A stretch of 59,780 nt of DNA from Thoreauomyces humboldtii (lineage: Eukaryota > Chytridiomycota > Chytridiomycetes > Spizellomycetales > Powellomycetaceae): contig JADGJA010000043.1 in NCBI GenBank assembly GCA_027596035.1, positions 1 to 59,780 of the forward strand, in the 5' to 3' direction. The stretch's first letter is position 1. Each line of letters begins with the position of its first letter. A program made the translations under genes and the position numbers. The notes beneath the pieces are model-generated. The model was given only the letters and a program-made list of their open reading frames with translations, ran no database searches and was not told the DNA's origin. Below are positions 298 through 9,339 of the stretch, piece by piece.

Positions 298-3200
298 ATG
301 GCCGCCCCCAGTCCCCTCACGGTCGAGCCGCCGTCTCGAAGCTCATCGCCATCGCCCTCAATTTCATCCAACAAGTCGAACTTCGGTGGCACAACGTATC
401 GTTCGTCCATCGATAATTCCATCCGTTCCTTTCTCCACAGCCATGTGCTCTTCAAGGACCTTGAGGATGATGATTTCATCAACACGGTCGCAGCCAGCAT
501 GCAGACCAGGATATACGGAGACTCCAGTTACGTCATCCGGCAGGGCGAGGTCGGGCGGGCCCTGTTTTTCGTCCTGCGAGGTTGCATCGAGGTCGTCAGC
601 GAGGACGGGGAGACCGTCATCAATGTCATGAAGGAGCAGAGCTTTTTTGGAGAGATCGGCGTTCTCTTCAGCGTCCCGAGGTAGGAGAGTGCGAGACCGG
701 AGAGGGAGTTGCCACGGCTGGCTCGCCATGGGAACACCACGCCAGGGATCGTCTTGAAACTGATCCTTTCTGATGGTTCCAGAACTGCATCCTGTCGGGC
801 GCGAGGGCGGTGCATCGTCTTGACGTTGACGAAAGGAGCGCTCCAGAAGGCCGCCGCTTTGCACCACGAAGTGGCCGATAAGATTCGTCTCATCGCAGAG
901 GAGCGATTCGCGACTTATGTGAAGCAAAAGGACAGCGCCATGCTGGTGGAGTTTGGGCAGGAGCTTCGATTGGGAATGACTCAAGCAGACCTGAAAAAGG
1001 TACCGGAAGGATGAACGAAGGATGTTCTGATCCATGCGGTACCGGGCATCTCCTTTACACAATCTTTTTTACCCAGGTCCCGCTGTTCCGGGACTGCTCC
1101 GTTGGCTTTCTTCATATGCTTGCGCTCACTCTTACGCCATTACAATATCGGCAAGGCGAAATCATCATCCGGAAGGGGGATGCAGCGTCTGAGATGTACT
1201 TTGTCGTGCAAGGAGTTGCCGAGGTTTTCTCAGAGGAAGACAACACATCCTTTGCCGAATTTCCACCGGGTTCTTTCTTTGGAGAAGTCGGTGTGTTCCT
1301 CCAGATAAAGAGGACAGGGTCAGTGAGATGCGCGAGCAACCAGGTCGCAGTGTTCAAGCTCGACCGGGGCGATCTCGACAACCTTCTCAAGCAGTATCCG
1401 GAAGTGCGAGCCGTCATTCAGAAGGAAGCAAAAATCCGATTCCAGTACAATGAGGAACGCGAAAAGAGCAAAATCGGCAAACAGATGCAGGAGGAGACGG
1501 AGATCGAGGTTGTTCGAGAGAAGATCAAGACGGTAAGATTGTCGATGCGCGTTCGCTCATGACAGTGCTCTCCTTACCCATGTTCAATGTTTGTTGTTAG
1601 GTCCCACTTTTCAAGGATGCGGATGTCGGCCTTCTCCACCAGCTTGCACTCGTTATGAAGTTGAAGGTGTTTTCACCAGGCACTGCCGTGATTCGGAAGG
1701 ACGAGGTTGGACACTCTATGTACTTTGTGCTTGACGGCACGGCAGAGGTGGTGTCCGAAGATGGAACGGCAGTTTACGCAGAGCTCGTACCGAACTCCTA
1801 TTTCGGAGAAGTGGCGCTGTAAGTCAACCCGGTGCATGGTAATCTTTAGGTCATCGCTTAACCTCCGACGTAGCCTCTTCGCAGTCAACCGGACTGCAAC
1901 TGTCCGGTCCCGCACTCAGACGACAATGTTCGAGCTTTCCAAAGATGCCCTGACAACTGTGCTTGCTCAGTATCCTAGCTTTGAGCAGAACATGAAGGAT
2001 AGGGCCGAAGCCAATCTGGAACTTTTCCAAAACCGGCAGAAAAAGGTGGAGGAAATTTCCGACAAGGCCGCCAAGAGAGACGACTTGTCGGTCGAAGCTA
2101 CCGCGGCGAGGCTGAAGTTGGTACGTAGCTCCTGGTGCCGACCACTCCAATGGCGGACATCATGTACTTACTCTGCATTCCCCATTATGTTTAGGTTCCA
2201 CTATTTCAGAACTGCGACGATGGATTTCTTCGCGAAGTTGCTTTGGGAACGTCGGTACGACAGGACCCATCGCAAACGCTTATCGTGCGAAAGGGGGCTG
2301 TATCACGAGAGATGTTCTTCATTGTTCATGGAACGGTCGAGATTGTATCAGAGGACGGTCAGACTGTCTACGATGCAGTGCAACCTGGTGGATTTTTCGG
2401 AGAAATCGGTTTGCTTCGAGGGATCAACCGTACGGCGTCGGTGCGCGTCGGTGGGCACTCCGTCTGCAGCATGGTGGTCCTGACGGCGGATGCGCTACGG
2501 AACGTCTTTCAGATGTATCCTGAGCAGTATCAAAACATTGTCATCGAAGCTGACAAGCGCTTTCGAGTGACTGAGGCGAGGAGACTAGAATCCGAGGAGT
2601 CGAAGAGAGCAGACGACCTTGCAGCATCATCGGGGAGCCTTGTAGAAAGTATGGGCGAGGAACCGGAGGCAGTAAAGGCTGGCGAGGAGCTTTGGGATTC
2701 AGCCGCTGCTCATATCAAGGGATCCGTGGACTCATCGGAAGCGTCTCAGGATGCGAAGTCCAATCCAGCTCCCGCCTCCTGGAAGGACGAGAGTCAACCG
2801 AAACCGCATCGAACAAACAGCCTTCAGAAGTTATTTCGAAGGAAGCGCGGTGGGAGCATTAGCAGTGGAAACGTCAGCACCAATTGCAGCACGTCAAGTC
2901 TCACTTCGCCGCAAGGATCTTCGACAAAAGAGCTGCCCGCGAGTTCGAAGGAAAGCGGAGGGAAAAGCGGGGTTACCATGATTCCTGTGCAGCCGATGGG
3001 GTTCAAAACGATTGCACCGGGGCTTGCGGCCAAACCCGAGCTCAAGAAGGTAAGCTCGGTCTGGTCTGTGCCGTCAGCCGCCTGATATCTGACAATCAGG
3101 ACATTGCAGAGCTCATCTCGCGTTTCTCGAATGTTCAACAATTTGAAATTCAATCGAAAAACCAGCAGCTCGCACAAAGCCACTCCCTCAACTGCTATCC

Positions 3201-4548
3201 GCACGGATCGATCCTCTAGCGATAGTTTTTCTCAGTCTACGGCGTCCGTCGAGACGACGCTGAATTCGGAAGACTCGGGTCCCGCGCCTTCTATCTCTCC
3301 CGTTCGGAGCACGACTGTACGATATGGACTTCAAAACCCGGCGTTCCCAGGCACACAGGGAATTGTAGCTTACCTCAATCCGCTGGATCGACTTAAGTTG
3401 CGACTTTTGTCTAAACGCTGGAATGAAGCCCTACGGAATCCGGTTCACTGGGAAACCTTGGACTTCTCGTCCATCTTCTCGGTTGCGGCACCTAAAACGT
3501 TTACGTCGCTATGGGAACTATCTGGCGAGCACCTCATGACTCTGCAACTAAAATCCTGCTGGCGGATCGACGACATTGCTTTGAAGGCACTCGCCCGACT
3601 CTGTCCAAATGTGCGGTCCTTATCCTTATCAAATTGCTGGAAATTCACCGAGGACGGGTTGAGCTTTTTGACTCAAGGTCTTCTGAATATACGCGAGGTG
3701 GATCTAAGCTACTGCGGTCAGATCAACGGCACGAGTTTTCAAAGACATCGATGGCACCGGCTCAGGATGTTGGACCTTACGTATTGCAAACAGATTGGAG
3801 ATGACAGTCTCGAAGCTCTACTGAGCAGGATCAGCGATCTCACACATCTCAGAATACGGAGGTGCATCAAGATGACAGACTCGGGCATGTTCAGCATTGT
3901 CCGCTACTGTCGGTGAGTTGCGAAGTTGCTTTAGCGATATAAAGTTTGCCAGAGGAGCCCTTTGCTGACCATCTTCTTAGTCAGTTGCAAGTGCTGGATG
4001 CCGCGGACTGTGACCGGTTCACGGACCGGTGTCTCAAGTGGCTGGCGACCAGCAACAAAGATCTGCACTACCTTGACTTTACCTTTTGCAAGAGGATAAC
4101 GAATGCTGGACTGTACGAGCTGTCCTTGGGCCAACAAGCTTTCACACACCTCGATTTCAGCTACTGCGGTCACCTCACGGACGCCTCCATCGTTTTTTTC
4201 ACGTCGGGCGTTCAAGACCTACGGTTCCTATCCCTTCGAGGCTGTCGGAACGTTACCAACAACGTCATGAAGCACCTGATTCGCACCGCGCCGATGCTGC
4301 GGACGCTCGACGTGACGGGATGTCCTTTGGTGACGGTCGAGGGCAAGCAGACTCTCGAAGCAAGCCTCAAGCGGTGCCGAGTGCTGGTGACAGTCCCGAC
4401 GAGGCTGGATCCGTCGCGGGTCCGTGCGCAGGAGCGTCAATACCACGAGGTGTTTCAAAGCGGACCAGCAGATAAGATGAGGAAGCGACCCGTGCCGGTA
4501 TCGTTGATGCTTCCTGCGGCGAGCGCGGCGCCCATCCTTGCGCGGTGA
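298..4548 (+). CDS. Tandem cyclic-nucleotide-binding (x4), F-box and LRR protein
   Basis: I read eight exons: 298-680, 783-999, 1077-1532, 1601-1818, 1874-2120, 2195-3049, 3110-3912 and 3981-4548. All phases close, giving about 1,248 aa. Four CNBD modules lie at about residues 42-165, 201-325, 353-480 and 508-640. Each keeps a phosphate-binding cassette of the type FGE(I/V)...RT(A/G)(S/T): PRTAS, KRTGS, NRTAT and NRTAS. The Glu and Arg that contact the ribose and phosphate are therefore present in all four. A low-complexity linker follows, then an F-box-like helix set (about 862-912, with NPLDRLKLRLLSKRWNEAL) and at least eight cysteine-containing LRRs of the FBXL type to the C-terminus. F-box/LRR proteins are substrate adaptors of SCF ubiquitin ligases, so control of an SCF adaptor by cAMP or cGMP is my inference. 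No membrane segment or kinase domain is visible. The 298 start is the first ATG in frame. Confidence 0.88.
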
Positions 4549-4785
4549 TCAGACGGGCAGCTTGATTTTTGGAGGAGAGGGGGCGAGGAGGGCGAGGAGG
4601 GAGAGCATACCCTTGTAAATATCTACTTCGACAATTTTTATTTTGCTGGGCTTCCGCCGGCCGTCTCCCATGATAAGATGTCGCTCGCTCATGAGTCATC
4701 ACATGTCTCGAGCTGTCGAGTCTCCGCTTCAATGATCAGGATTCCTCGTCTCTGACCGTTGCCATCCCACACGAGAGAATCGCAG

Positions 4786-7008
4786 ATGGACACGACAAAA
4801 AAGTCGTTCCAGAGTCCAGAAGGCGTCTTCAAACTTCACCATGAACTCAGACTGGAACCAAACTCGGTGCCTGGGAACTCTTGCGTAGCGTTCGTCACCA
4901 ACAAGACTTCTAGCGGCCTGGAGGAGGGGCCTAGTCAACTCGATGACATAGTCAACCAACCTGCGAAGTTTGTGGAAGTCTCGGTCAACGGGGACGGTAT
5001 ATCTTACGGGACTATTGCTTTTCCTGTGGATGGCCGCAATCTGACTGACATCGACTGTCGCGTGGCAGAAAAGGGCAGCTTCTCCTTTGTTCAGAGGGAC
5101 AAGAGCAAAGCAGCGAAGAAAGTGAAGGCAGCCATAGCGAAACCGAACACAGGATTCGTATCGCGAGTTGTTGCGAACGAGAACATTGCCAAAATACTCT
5201 CCCATCGGCCGAGTGAGAGCACGTATATGCTGGTGAATGGTGGAAGGTCAGTCACATGGAGAGACTATCCCTGCAAAGCAAAGGTACCGAACGGAGGGGA
5301 TGACGGATTCGCCGCTGCGGCCTGAGGAACGACGTTCTGAATGGACATACGAAGGACCCGCTTTCTACCATTCACTTCCGGGATGCAATAGCGACGAGCA
5401 TGGACATCAACATGCTTACCAAGGAGAATATCGACACTGTGATTGGTGTGGCAAGATAGTTCACGTTCCTACGGGTATGCGATGGTGGAAAGGAACGCTG
5501 AAAGCTAGCCACCGGCAGGATTCAACACGGGAGACATCCTGAGTTATTCCCCAATCACGGGCAAATTTGTTAGGCTGAACAAGCAGGTATTACATGCTAG
5601 CCGTACGGCCCGTGCTTGCGACAAAGCCTGATGTTTTCCATAGGGCTCTGTCAATAAATATGGTGTAACATGCATTAAATGGATGCCGGTGCGTTCTTGT
5701 AGCGGAAGCAAGTAAGATTCGTCTTCAGAGCTGAGTTTTGTTACATCTGCAGCCTCGAGGTTTACGGGATGATGAGAACATGTTTGTCGCGGGCTTTGAG
5801 GACGGTAGCGTAGTGATATTTGACCGTGAGAAAGAGGACCCTGCGAATGCCTTCACACCTGCATTTTCCGATCAAGATTCGTAAGTAGTTTCCCTAGGCG
5901 GCGAACTCTCGCTACATCTGAAGCCTCTGGCAACGTTCTTCTAGGAACCTCTTTGCGACGACCAAGCCTTCGAAAAGCCATAAATCTAATCCGTTCAGTT
6001 GGTGGCAAGCTGGCCGGAAAGCAATCACGGGTAAAGAAAGAATTGGGCAGATTTGCGCCTCCTTCCTTCGTGGAACTTATCTTTGGGGTTTTCAGCTATC
6101 GCTTTCTCGCCGGATCTCCAACATGCTGCCATAGCCTCGGCGGATGGACGTTTACGAATTGTCGACCATCTTCAGGAAACACTGGTAGAAAGTTATAAGG
6201 GGTATTATGGAGGCATCACTTGCGTTGATTATTCACCAGGTAACAGGCAACTTTCGTATGCACTACCTCCCTTATCAAAAGAGGCTTTTGCTAGGGCAAA
6301 ATCTGGGAGACATATACTGGCGCTAACTGGAAAACTAACCCTTGATCTATTGGTAGACGGAAAGTACATACTGACGGGAGGACAGGTACCCATACGGATG
6401 AAACCCATGACCGTCATGCTCCCTATTCATGTCAAAAAGTTTAGGACGATATCGTAACAATATGGCAGTTCCAGCGCGGGATTGTCGCAAGGTGCCACGG
6501 GCACTCGTCTTGGGTCAGTGGGGTGGCTTTCGATCCACACCTGTGTACCGAGTCTAGCTACAGGCTTGCGAGCGTAGGAGGTAAGCCAAATTGAGTGGAC
6601 GCGCCAAAGCGAGACCGTCGAGTTCTAACATAACTCGTGATACCGAAAGACGATACTCGTCTCTTTCTCTGGGAATTCTCGCTAGCTCAATTAGCCCGTC
6701 CCAAAGCGGTGAGTGCGAAGTTCTTGCATCCCGTTAGATCCTACTGATATCGTCCGATGAAAAATCACCAGAACAACCACAGAAAGTACCGTCAGGAAAC
6801 CTCCCAACTTACGCCGGAAGATGGAAGCGACGGTGCATACCCTGTCTTTTCCAAGACTGAGGTTGCCACCCTCGCGCCTTTAGAGTCCGAAGGGTTCTGT
6901 CTGCATGATGTCCCAATATGCTCGTTAACTTTTAGGGAGGACTCATTGGTGACCGTGGACGCTCAAGGTTACATTCGGATATGGCTACGGCCTTCCGTAC
7001 AGTCATAG
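4786..7008 (+). CDS. WDR20: WDR20/CreC-family WD40 protein (deubiquitinase cofactor)
   Basis: I read eleven exons: 4786-5283, 5355-5445, 5519-5586, 5644-5688, 5753-5880, 5945-6030, 6096-6239, 6357-6385, 6445-6580, 6650-6708 and 6772-7008. All phases close, giving about 506 aa. Family landmarks appear in order: an IGFNTGDI...[11 protein letters not shown] segment, [45 protein letters not shown], and [14 protein letters not shown] followed by [18 protein letters not shown] last WD-like unit ends IRIWLRP, as in WDR20. Known role: WDR20 (CreC in Aspergillus, with CreB) activates the USP12/46-type deubiquitinase. Fungal CreC acts in carbon catabolite repression. The ATG at 4786 was chosen because an in-frame upstream extension begins only with TTG. 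The gene converges on PIG-U with 171 bp between stops. Confidence 0.9.
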
Positions 7009-7179
7009 CCGTTTTCCCGGCATTACCATCATACTCTGGGAACGTGGGAAGCGTGCTCAAATCCCGTGCGTGTAGAAGCAGAGGATTCTACATTTTCTTC
7101 CCCCCATCCACAAATTCACCCATCCCAGTTGCGAACTCCATGGGATCATGTACTATGGCACACAATAGACTACGGCGTA

Positions 7180-9339
7180 TTATTGATGAACTAATTCGAC
7201 TCTCTTGCGCCGCAAATCGGGATTCAGTCTTTCCCACTCGCGTAGAATCAGAGCCAGGCCCGAATCCGTGAGCAGAATAACTTGTGCCAACCCAAAAACT
7301 AGGGTAATGGCAAAGTAGAAATTGGCGTTACCGCTTCCGGCATACACCCAGAGGTAATAGAACAGTGGCCCGAGAACCGAGGCAAACATGATCGCGGTAA
7401 ACACGAGGAACGTGTGCCGCATATCTGGGACGAGGGTGGCAAATGCTTAGACTCACCCGAGGAGATAGAGAAAGCATTGAGAGCTTACATTTGTACAACT
7501 CCCTGTGCATCGCAAGGAACGCAAATGCGAGAGCGGTGTCTCCCACAGAAGGATAGGACTTGAAAATGGCCATGATGGCCGTCATGGTGTATACAACGAA
7601 AAGTGGGTGATTTCTAAAGCGAGGCGCAGACACGTCAGAAACCAGAGTCACTGCGTTGGATGCGAATGTCGGAAACCGCCATACTTGAACACCATTGTAA
7701 GCGGTATAGCAAATACAAATACCATGATTTGAAAGACGGCCAGAAAGAGAGGTCGGAACTGCTCGAACATCTCCATGAAGAAATACCAGTAAAGACCAAT
7801 ATTTGGCGTAAGGTCCGGCACTGTAAGACTGGGGATGCAACTATAAGGATACATGAAGCGGGGGAGCTCATAGCGGACATATGACTTACATGACGCCGTA
7901 TGTCGATGGAAGGAACTGCCACGTTCCCACTAGCAGGTAGGACAGTCCAAGTAGTGACGCAAGACTTGCCATGAAGACCGATACAGAAGCCTTCGCTTCC
8001 TGCATAACCTGATGAGAGAAAAATCGATTTAGCCGAAGCTCAACCCTGGACTATCGTTCATGACAGTACCGGTCGACCCGAGTGCTGGGCTAGGAGCAAT
8101 GTAGCTGGGGCCACTAGCATTGCAGGATACAGACTGAGGTACGCGGCGACCGCCAACGCAAGCATGGACGCATTCCGATTCCCTGCACGAAAGCTTGTGA
8201 TAAGTCCGCGTGACACGATCTGTCGATGTTTGGGCAACTCACCCTTGGTGGCAAACTCGATCCCTTTTGCGATAGCAAGAATCGTGAAGACGAGCGAGGA
8301 TAGCGCCAAACACGCCAATATGCTGTAAGGGTTCATCAAATAGAGTGCGCCGACGTTTTCAGGATGAAGCAGAACATCAACGGGTTGCGTAGGGTCGTCG
8401 GACGCCGGACGTAAAATCTTGATGGCGGGACCGACCGTTTCTCCTTGCACGATCTTGTCGTCATCGCCTTCCAGCCATGGCGGGAAAGGAGATGTTGGTG
8501 CGGGAGGTTGATCGTCATCTTCAGCATCAGCCAGTCCTTCAGATGATCCTTTGCATGGTCCTTTCGTGGCTTCCGTAATCGCAGCTCCAGTTGGCTCGCC
8601 ACCGACCGTGGACGCGCGGCGATGAAGCCAGGATGAGCCTTCAGATGCAGTCTCGGCTCTTGGTATTGGGAGCTCAGCTTCGTGAGGCAGATTTGACTCA
8701 GGTCCATCCACACGCCCGGCGCGGGCAGCTATTGGCATCGACGCCATGAGGGCCACATCAGCATCACTCGCTGGCCAGACTTCGTCAATCTGCAGGGCAC
8801 GTTTATGTTGCCCTATTGCAACGAGGGACCGTGCAATCGCATAATCGATGAACGTGAACAGCAGAGGAACAAGGACCGGTGGGAGGAAGTTGAAGACTAG
8901 TAGCAGCAACGGAGCCTAGAGCAACCACAGTCAGACTCTTAAAGTAGGCCGCAGCGAGCGCCAGCAGCCCGTACGTCGCAGTCGGACCTGGTGGAAGACG
9001 CCGCCCTCATACGGCGGAATGCCGTGTTGATACAAGAACAACCCCTCTTGTACTAAGCGGTGGTCAGTATAATCCACCTGGCTCCTCGGTTTCCAAATGA
9101 AACGTACGGCGCTTCCAGCTGGAGAGAGGGGTGCTGGCTTCTATCCGGCTCTGCAAGAAGCTGCTGGCATCGGTGTAGAAAAATAAGAGGATTCGCAAGA
9201 CAATGCCAACCGCGACTGGAATTCGAACAACGGGATCTTCAGCAGCCGGAAGACGAAGACTATCTAAAACGGTACTAAGAGCCGCTGTGCCGACCGCTGC
9301 AGCTGCAGTGGCTTGTTCTAATCGTGACGGAAGTGGCAT
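7180..9339 (-). CDS. PIGU: GPI transamidase subunit PIG-U/GAB1
   Basis: I read eight exons on the minus strand: 9339-9108, 9052-8988, 8915-8243, 8182-8070, 8008-7890, 7828-7685, 7613-7489 and 7424-7180. Phases close, giving about 571 aa. PIG-U is a multi-pass ER membrane subunit of the GPI transamidase, which attaches GPI anchors to proteins. Diagnostic segments are [94 protein letters not shown] and [18 protein letters not shown] near the C-terminus. The protein is longer than the human form (435 aa). The extra length is a hydrophilic, Pro/Asp/Glu-rich insertion at about residues 150-280 (nt 8370-8770), before the YLMNPYSI helix, plus an extended N-terminus. The start at 9339 is the only ATG in frame before the conserved first helix. 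Confidence 0.93.

Follow-up and report, generated by a model that had tools for sequence, protein, structure and literature searches.

Plasmodium PKG carries four tandem cyclic-nucleotide-binding domains (CNBDs) ahead of a C-terminal effector, and one of the four is degenerate. The plant hormone receptors TIR1 and COI1 are F-box/leucine-rich-repeat (LRR) adaptors switched by a small molecule, which lies inside the LRR as a glue for the substrate. In trypanosomatid PKAR1, the LRR stands ahead of the CNBDs. FBXL2 and FBXL17, which were solved with SKP1 (6o60, 6w66, and 6wcq), consist of an F-box followed by LRRs. Here, we describe a gene of the chytrid Thoreauomyces humboldtii that resembles each of these systems in part. 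Within a window of 59,780 bases (i.e., the whole stretch of DNA that was analyzed, positions 1 to 59,780 of contig JADGJA010000043.1), it encodes a protein with four CNBDs, an F-box, and LRRs, in that order. We give roughly even chances to the proposal that this gene encodes a substrate adaptor for an SCF (SKP1-CUL1-F-box) ubiquitin ligase with a four-domain cyclic-nucleotide sensor, through which a second messenger would tune substrate breakdown.

The window protein and Plasmodium PKG share the four tandem CNBDs ahead of a C-terminal effector; the effector of PKG is a kinase, however, and the window protein keeps the pocket residues in all four domains. FBXL2 and FBXL17 are alike to it in the sequence and modeled fold of the F-box and LRRs, but to our knowledge they contain no CNBDs and have no known cyclic-nucleotide regulation. 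In TIR1 and COI1 the ligand is held within the LRR, whereas the pockets of the window protein are separate domains. Relative to PKAR1, the order of LRR and CNBDs is reversed. PKAR1 also joins an LRR and CNBDs in one protein, but it binds a nucleoside ligand and regulates a kinase, and the accessible part of the source mentions no F-box (PMC11006142). A fungal sister family has N-terminal CNBDs (one or two), a linker, an F-box (weaker in chytrid members), and LRRs; its pocket residues are mostly kept, and its first CNBDs group with the first CNBD of the window's branch. It differs in CNBD number, falls on a separate side of the tree (100/100), and has a conserved PKA-like RRxS site, which is lacking from the window's branch.

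One gene with four CNBDs, an F-box, and LRRs

A lineage look-up placed the host in the chytrid order Spizellomycetales, in agreement with an earlier reading made from the DNA letters and open reading frames alone (here, the sequence-only reading), which had presumed a chytrid. The genome comprises 20.7 Mb in 823 contigs, of which the window is contig C368. Splicing of the window DNA into eight exons (298-680, 783-999, 1077-1532, 1601-1818, 1874-2120, 2195-3049, 3110-3912, and 3981-4548) removed seven introns of 55 to 102 bases, all GT-AG, and resulted in one open frame of 1248 aa. In a protein search, the product matched HKX48_005868 (P0001) at 100% identity over its full length. A Pfam search of the spliced product detected four cNMP_binding (PF00027) stretches (E, 1.1e-67; 224 bits), the F-box, and the LRRs, which bore out the sequence-only claim that all of these reside in one protein.

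The protein search with the window protein yielded 61 matches (E up to 0.001) among 7993 scored candidates. The first 38 (P0001 to P0038, i.e., the window protein and 37 further proteins) constitute a four-CNBD branch. A CNBD profile found four CNBDs in 35 of the 38; P0037 and P0038 had three each, and P0028 gave five pieces. For domain counts, the P0028 pieces were merged to four domains, and the three domains of P0037 and P0038 were labeled 2 to 4 (domain 1 missing), a labeling borne out for the first of these two proteins; the annotated first CNBDs of P0007 and P0030 are cut short. LRRs were present in 36 of the 38 (missing in P0027 and P0032 as annotated), always in the order CNBDs, F-box, LRR.

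Two separate genes for the CNBD and F-box/LRR parts are unlikely because the sole intron between them is 60 bases long, as judged from the gene model. It is extremely improbable that the protein is an artefact of annotation or assembly, i.e., the joining of what are really two genes, one for CNBDs and one of the FBXL kind. The two branch proteins annotated without an LRR part would fit such an artefact, but P0027 stops inside the F-box and looks like a truncated model, the other 36 are annotated with the same domain order, a similar order recurs in the sister branch across many fungi, and that 60-base intron is the sole gap between the two parts. Split genes and misassembly were thus rejected on the basis of the order in 36 of 38 branch proteins and the short intron.

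All four phosphate-binding cassettes of the window protein carry Glu, Arg, and Thr next to the Arg, as the sequence-only reading had stated. The CNBD profile used for the window domains has these same domains in its seed. Across the 38 branch proteins, the pocket Glu was kept in 149 of 150 CNBDs and the Arg in all 150; the sole missing Glu belongs to domain 3 of P0028, the annotated protein being without that stretch. All eight Glu and Arg columns were among the 70 invariant columns of a 25-row alignment with a mean column identity of 30%. Because these residues are kept in nearly every CNBD of the branch, all four domains likely bind cAMP or cGMP, by analogy with relatives. The dimerization/docking domain of PKA regulatory subunits was absent among the 12 Pfam families found in the window protein at E up to 1, and an RIIa search for a PKA regulatory subunit gave no match in this genome or in any control genome, which makes that search uninformative.

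The adaptor half was compared with solved structures by sequence and by a predicted fold. In a PDB sequence search, the part encoded by 3110-3910 matched FBXL2 (6o60_C; E, 1.1e-37), and the LRR part weakly matched TIR1 (E, 1.1e-4). All matches in an NCBIfam search were far below their own cut-offs. An AlphaFold2 model was made with 25 sequences for the relative P0009 rather than for the window protein (mean pLDDT, 75.3; pTM, 0.40); pLDDT mostly exceeded 90 in the LRRs and mostly stayed under 50 in the linker. Foldseek aligned the F-box/LRR part of this model with FBXL2 of the GGTase3-FBXL2-SKP1 complex (TM-score by target, 0.73; rmsd, 3.9) and also with FBXL17 from SKP1 complexes. The assignment to the SKP1-binding FBXL kind, made earlier from the letters, is thus sustained by both comparisons.

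PF00646 was detected (E up to 0.01) in 22 of the 25 aligned four-CNBD proteins, and a family F-box profile built from those 25 matched 37 of the 38 branch proteins, a partly circular count. The F-box Trp (W747 of P0009) was invariant in all 25. In an F-box scan of the genome, the window match (E, 7.9e-5; C368:3362-3454) was one of 51. The F-box/LRR part likely binds SKP1, as its relatives suggest, and the LRR array would be a putative substrate receptor. The genome holds 5 SKP1-family and 23 cullin-family matches. By block, the mean majority fraction over 25 rows was 0.62 to 0.74 for the CNBDs, 0.46 for the F-box, 0.61 for the LRRs, and 0.37 for the linker; the LRRs come close to the CNBDs in this measure.

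Table 1. Features of the four-CNBD gene (window coordinates; fractions refer to four-CNBD branch proteins)
Feature	Position	Strand	Basis or remark
Whole coding region, 1248 aa (four CNBDs, F-box, LRR)	298..4548	+	Eight exons spliced; identical to HKX48_005868
CNBD 1, residues 45-168, intron-interrupted	430..903	+	Profile match E 1e-50 (seed includes domain), Pfam
Phosphate-binding cassette 1, FGEIGVLFSVPRTAS, split by intron 681-782	646..792	+	Glu and Arg kept 36/36
CNBD 2, residues 197-320, intron-interrupted	988..1436	+	Profile match E 8e-51 (seed includes domain), Pfam
Phosphate-binding cassette 2, FGEVGVFLQIKRTGS	1278..1322	+	Glu and Arg kept 38/38
CNBD 3, residues 349-471, interrupted by introns	1521..2012	+	Profile match E 2e-52 (seed includes domain), Pfam
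Phosphate-binding cassette 3, FGEVALLFAVNRTAT, split by intron 1819-1873	1802..1901	+	Glu 37/38, Arg 38/38
CNBD 4, residues 504-629, intron-interrupted	2109..2560	+	Profile match E 2e-50 (seed includes domain), Pfam
Phosphate-binding cassette 4, FGEIGLLRGINRTAS	2396..2440	+	Glu and Arg kept 38/38
Linear motif SLQKLFRR in linker	2819..2842	+	Pattern strictly between last CNBD and F-box in 22/38
Linker intron, 60 bases, GT-AG; sole gap between CNBD and F-box/LRR parts	3050..3109	+	Splicing
F-box, residues 867-917	3332..3484	+	PF00646 21.0 bits; family profile E 2.9e-21 (seed includes sequence)
FBXL-kind LRRs, residues 918-1185, split by intron 3913-3980	3485..4356	+	LRR_6 E 1e-14

A sister family and the descent of the array

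Species names were available for 34 of the 38 branch proteins, and all belong to Chytridiomycota except one Gonapodya (Monoblepharomycota) and one Olpidium (Olpidiomycota), as placed by lineage look-up. The Chytridiomycota lineage was looked up for Thoreauomyces, Quaeritorhiza, Zopfochytrium, Irineochytrium, Polychytrium, and Synchytrium; we take the remaining named hosts to be Chytridiomycota as well. All of the named hosts are presumably zoosporic fungi. One relative, P0012 of Irineochytrium annulatum (1708 aa), is also annotated with a protein kinase domain, which may come from a gene-model fusion. Another gene of the T. humboldtii genome, on the minus strand at about 6579-9041 of locus L051 (G000:C660:3000-12253), contains multiple CNBD pieces that resemble the window gene's own; no F-box or LRR was seen by eye in its reading frames, and no further search was made.

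Further down the same match list were proteins of Chlamydoabsidia (P0041) and Cordyceps (P0043) with two CNBDs each. A search with P0043, itself with two CNBD stretches, returned 1388 proteins. The best 120 of these combined CNBDs with LRRs, and most were also annotated (precomputed annotation) with an F-box and with PF16643 (cNMPbd_u2), the linker family of the ascomycete form; we presume the named proteins among these 120 to be from ascomycetes. Names given to sister-family proteins in the sources include F-box/LRR-repeat protein 7, F-box protein PpaB, and anaphase-promoting complex subunit Hcn1. PF16643 was absent from the window protein and from the 19 families found in 25 scanned four-CNBD proteins. 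In a set of 32 one/two-CNBD proteins, PF16643 was detected in 4 and PF00646 (E up to 0.01) in 12.

The host genome itself encodes a sister-family paralogue on contig C297 (locus L050, G000:C297:14500-21000; 1714-5109 in three exons; 922 aa). Its product has one CNBD, with the cassette Glu and Arg kept, and LRRs; its F-box was weak by the family profile (E, 0.086). An intron of this gene (2219-2778 of the locus) contains several imperfect copies, seen by eye, of a GC-rich palindrome-like repeat, gccgcgcgaagcgcgg. A search with the C297 product returned 164 proteins, and the best 120 came from chytrids, Neocallimastigomycota, Mucoromycota, and Ascomycota, the phyla being assigned on our part from the species names. 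Among the matches listed, at least 17 named species occurred in both the four-CNBD and the C297 lists, the present genome being the 18th; for three of the 17 (B. salamandrivorans, Chytridium lagenaria, and Entophlyctis luteolus), the second protein has no precomputed CNBD.

Uniqueness of the CNBD/F-box/LRR architecture was rejected in view of the similar order in many fungi found by the P0043 and C297 searches. The window protein is a four-sensor variant of a widespread, Pfam-catalogued, and apparently uncharacterized fungal family. The earlier remark that no characterized protein has such a combination stood in one respect: among the matches listed, none was found in the open-access literature (subscription journals lie mostly outside this coverage), and the name PpaB led only to unrelated work there. 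Such an absence is weak evidence. The combination itself is widespread in fungi, and PF16643 covers the linker part of the ascomycete form.

Pocket residues were also counted in the sister family (237 proteins listed, minus six that lack a CNBD and one whose CNBD hits came in three pieces). Single CNBDs (n = 47) had the Glu in 44 and the Arg in 45. Among proteins with two CNBDs, first domains (n = 183) had the Arg in all 183 and the Glu in 152, with Asp instead of Glu in 31, and second domains (n = 183) had the Glu in 178 and the Arg in 182.

Two unrooted trees bear on descent. One, built for 52 chosen proteins from the sequence that follows the last CNBD, split 17 four-CNBD rows from 35 others with full support (100/100). 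These others were chytrid, mucoromycete, and ascomycete proteins, with the mucoromycetes not forming one group; the exact places of the long branches P0031 and P0036 are unsure. In a tree of 75 single CNBDs, which has few columns, positions 1, 2, 3, and 4 of 10 four-CNBD proteins formed four separate clades, the first and second CNBDs of the sister family each formed one group, and CNBD 1 of the four-CNBD branch joined the first CNBD of the sister family (support, 99/89). An ancestral CNBD/F-box/LRR protein probably predates the split of the two branches, and the four-CNBD array was probably complete before the sampled species diverged. Because the four positions form four separate clades, we take the array to be old, with no pocket decayed. 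If the root lies between the branches, the four-CNBD form would be old and would have been lost in fungi without zoospores; alternatively, it may be a rapidly diverging chytrid duplicate. The single gene model, the domain order, the conserved pocket residues, and the relationship to the sister family are direct observations.

Ligand, linker, and proposed coupling of the two halves

The counts of Thr directly behind the cassette Arg in the four-CNBD branch are 34 of 36 (domain 1), 25 of 38 (domain 2), 38 of 38 (domain 3), and 36 of 38 (domain 4); in the sister family they are 36 of 47 for single, 154 of 183 for first, and 142 of 183 for second domains. Being common to both branches, this Thr cannot tell cAMP from cGMP, and it was rejected as proof of cGMP. 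HCN channels have Thr after the Arg, yet they prefer cAMP. The genome contained 12 class III cyclase and 15 PDE1-type matches. The purine-site pair was Glu/Cys in one cyclase (C485:2422-2985), Lys/Asp in another (C563:1352-4010, two pieces together), and a mixed Glu/Ala in a third (C36:13440-14012). On the assumed rule that Glu/Cys marks guanylyl cyclases and Lys/Asp adenylyl cyclases, both messengers may be present in the host, because guanylyl-like and adenylyl-like motifs occur in one genome.

The sequence-only reading had tied the architecture to cGMP signaling in zoospores. As a specific role this was not upheld: the one/two-CNBD branch occurs in fungi that we presume to lack zoospores, the Thr is frequent in either branch, and cyclases of both kinds seem to be encoded in the genome. 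T. humboldtii presumably makes zoospores, and the occurrence of the four-CNBD branch only in zoosporic fungi among named matches agrees with the idea but does not prove it.

For the window gene we propose the following mechanism, in which the gating, the ligand identity, and the substrate are our inference. The N-terminal half would be a four-CNBD sensor with cAMP or cGMP at all four pockets, and the F-box/LRR part would be the substrate adaptor of an SCF ubiquitin ligase. Ligand binding would change how the tandem CNBDs are arranged, in the manner of PKA regulatory subunits, Epac, and the four-CNBD Plasmodium PKG. Through the long linker, this change would make the LRR face more or less accessible to the substrate, or the F-box to SKP1, and the second messenger would thus tune the breakdown of one conserved substrate class. 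Conservation supports the sensing and adaptor halves as predicted; their coupling is an unproved proposal.

Several observations weigh against this mechanism. On its own, the window F-box is barely above the Pfam cut-off (21.0 versus 20.5 bits, covering profile positions 12-42 of 43). Together with the weak F-box of the C297 paralogue and the detection of PF00646 in only 12 of 32 one/two-CNBD proteins, this score could mean that the F-box/LRR part works outside SCF, as an SKP1-only or SKP1-independent scaffold. We consider this improbable given the detection of the F-box in most four-CNBD proteins (Pfam, 22 of 25; family profile, 37 of 38), the invariant Trp, and the closest solved F-box/LRR folds, which come from SKP1 complexes.

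A second observation concerns the ligand. The PKA regulatory subunits of trypanosomatids bind nucleoside analogues and not cAMP, and T. brucei PKAR1, which joins an RNI-like LRR domain and CNBDs, is described as cAMP independent and as binding nucleoside analogues (PMC11006142). It is quite improbable, however, that the CNBDs of the window protein likewise sense a different ligand (e.g., a nucleoside) in place of cAMP or cGMP. The title of 6h4g, a structure of the T. brucei subunit, lists the changes E311A, T318R, and V319A, which we take to mean that the wild type has Thr at the position of the phosphate-binding Arg, whereas the four-CNBD branch has this Arg in every one of its 150 domains.

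The structural comparison also falls short of the proposal. Foldseek matched the CNBD part of the P0009 model with Plasmodium PKG (best E-values; 5dyl, 4rz7, and others) and with PKA regulatory subunits, but the top PKG matches had TM-scores of about 0.2 and rmsd values of about 18 to 22; therefore, single domains match and not the arrangement of the CNBDs. Because the pTM is 0.40 and the linker is mostly below a pLDDT of 50, the model is uninformative on contact between the CNBDs and the F-box/LRR part. Finally, the linker is poorly conserved (0.37 over the 25 rows given above), and a precisely built mechanical coupling is for this reason not favored.

Short motifs were nevertheless recurrent after the last CNBD. 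The pattern [STPGAN][LFIM]xx[LIM]F was found there in 23 of 38 four-CNBD proteins (3.6 expected from shuffles), and the same pattern with basic residues behind it in 17 of 38 (0.35 expected). In the sister family, RRxS plus a hydrophobic residue was found in 228 of 231 proteins (11.7 expected; missing in P0210, P0239, and P0259), and a longer form ending in SVAVW or SIAVW in 86 of 231. The four-CNBD branch had the RRxS site in only 5 of 38 proteins (1.7 expected) and the looser R[RK]x[ST] in 26 of 38 (14.7 expected). These patterns were chosen after viewing the sequences, the shuffle comparisons are post hoc, and many of the counted proteins are close kin. The counts cover the first 45% of the part after the last CNBD and may run into the F-box, where the matches of P0005 and P0008 and the second match of P0024 lie. 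When one strand of five genome loci was scanned for motifs, nothing came up beyond the C297 motif, already known, and one false match. In the product of L050 the RRxS site lies at residues 380-384, and in chytrids and mucoromycetes it often reads RRASVAVW.

RRxS is the PKA consensus, and its conservation suggests that proteins of the sister branch are targets or docking partners of PKA. This conservation also lends something to a rival reading in which the protein is an SCF adaptor with a cyclic-nucleotide-binding scaffold, i.e., the CNBDs set localization (for example, at the flagellar apparatus or at a PKA catalytic subunit) or stability, and ligase activity is ungated. The poor conservation of the linker fits this reading, as do a Foldseek match to a bovine sperm axoneme chain (9fqr_Xk) and the restriction of the branch, among named matches, to fungi known generally to make zoospores. 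We nevertheless regard it as rather unlikely, in that four separate pockets kept intact suggest that occupancy is read out, and the four-CNBD branch itself is without the PKA-like site.

Returning to the gated SCF adaptor, a broader extension is that fungi have an ancient ubiquitin-ligase family switched directly by cyclic nucleotides, of which the four-sensor version was kept in swimming fungi; we hold this tentatively, at somewhat less than even chances. Alongside kinases, channels, and exchange factors, ligases switched in this way would form a further type of cyclic-nucleotide effector. A readout of all four pockets could make the response steep or graded, and if the CNBDs gate the ligase, fungal protein breakdown would be under direct second-messenger control with no intermediate kinase. 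As the four-CNBD branch tracks zoosporic fungi among the named matches, it may be relevant to the control of the swimming stage by cyclic nucleotides.

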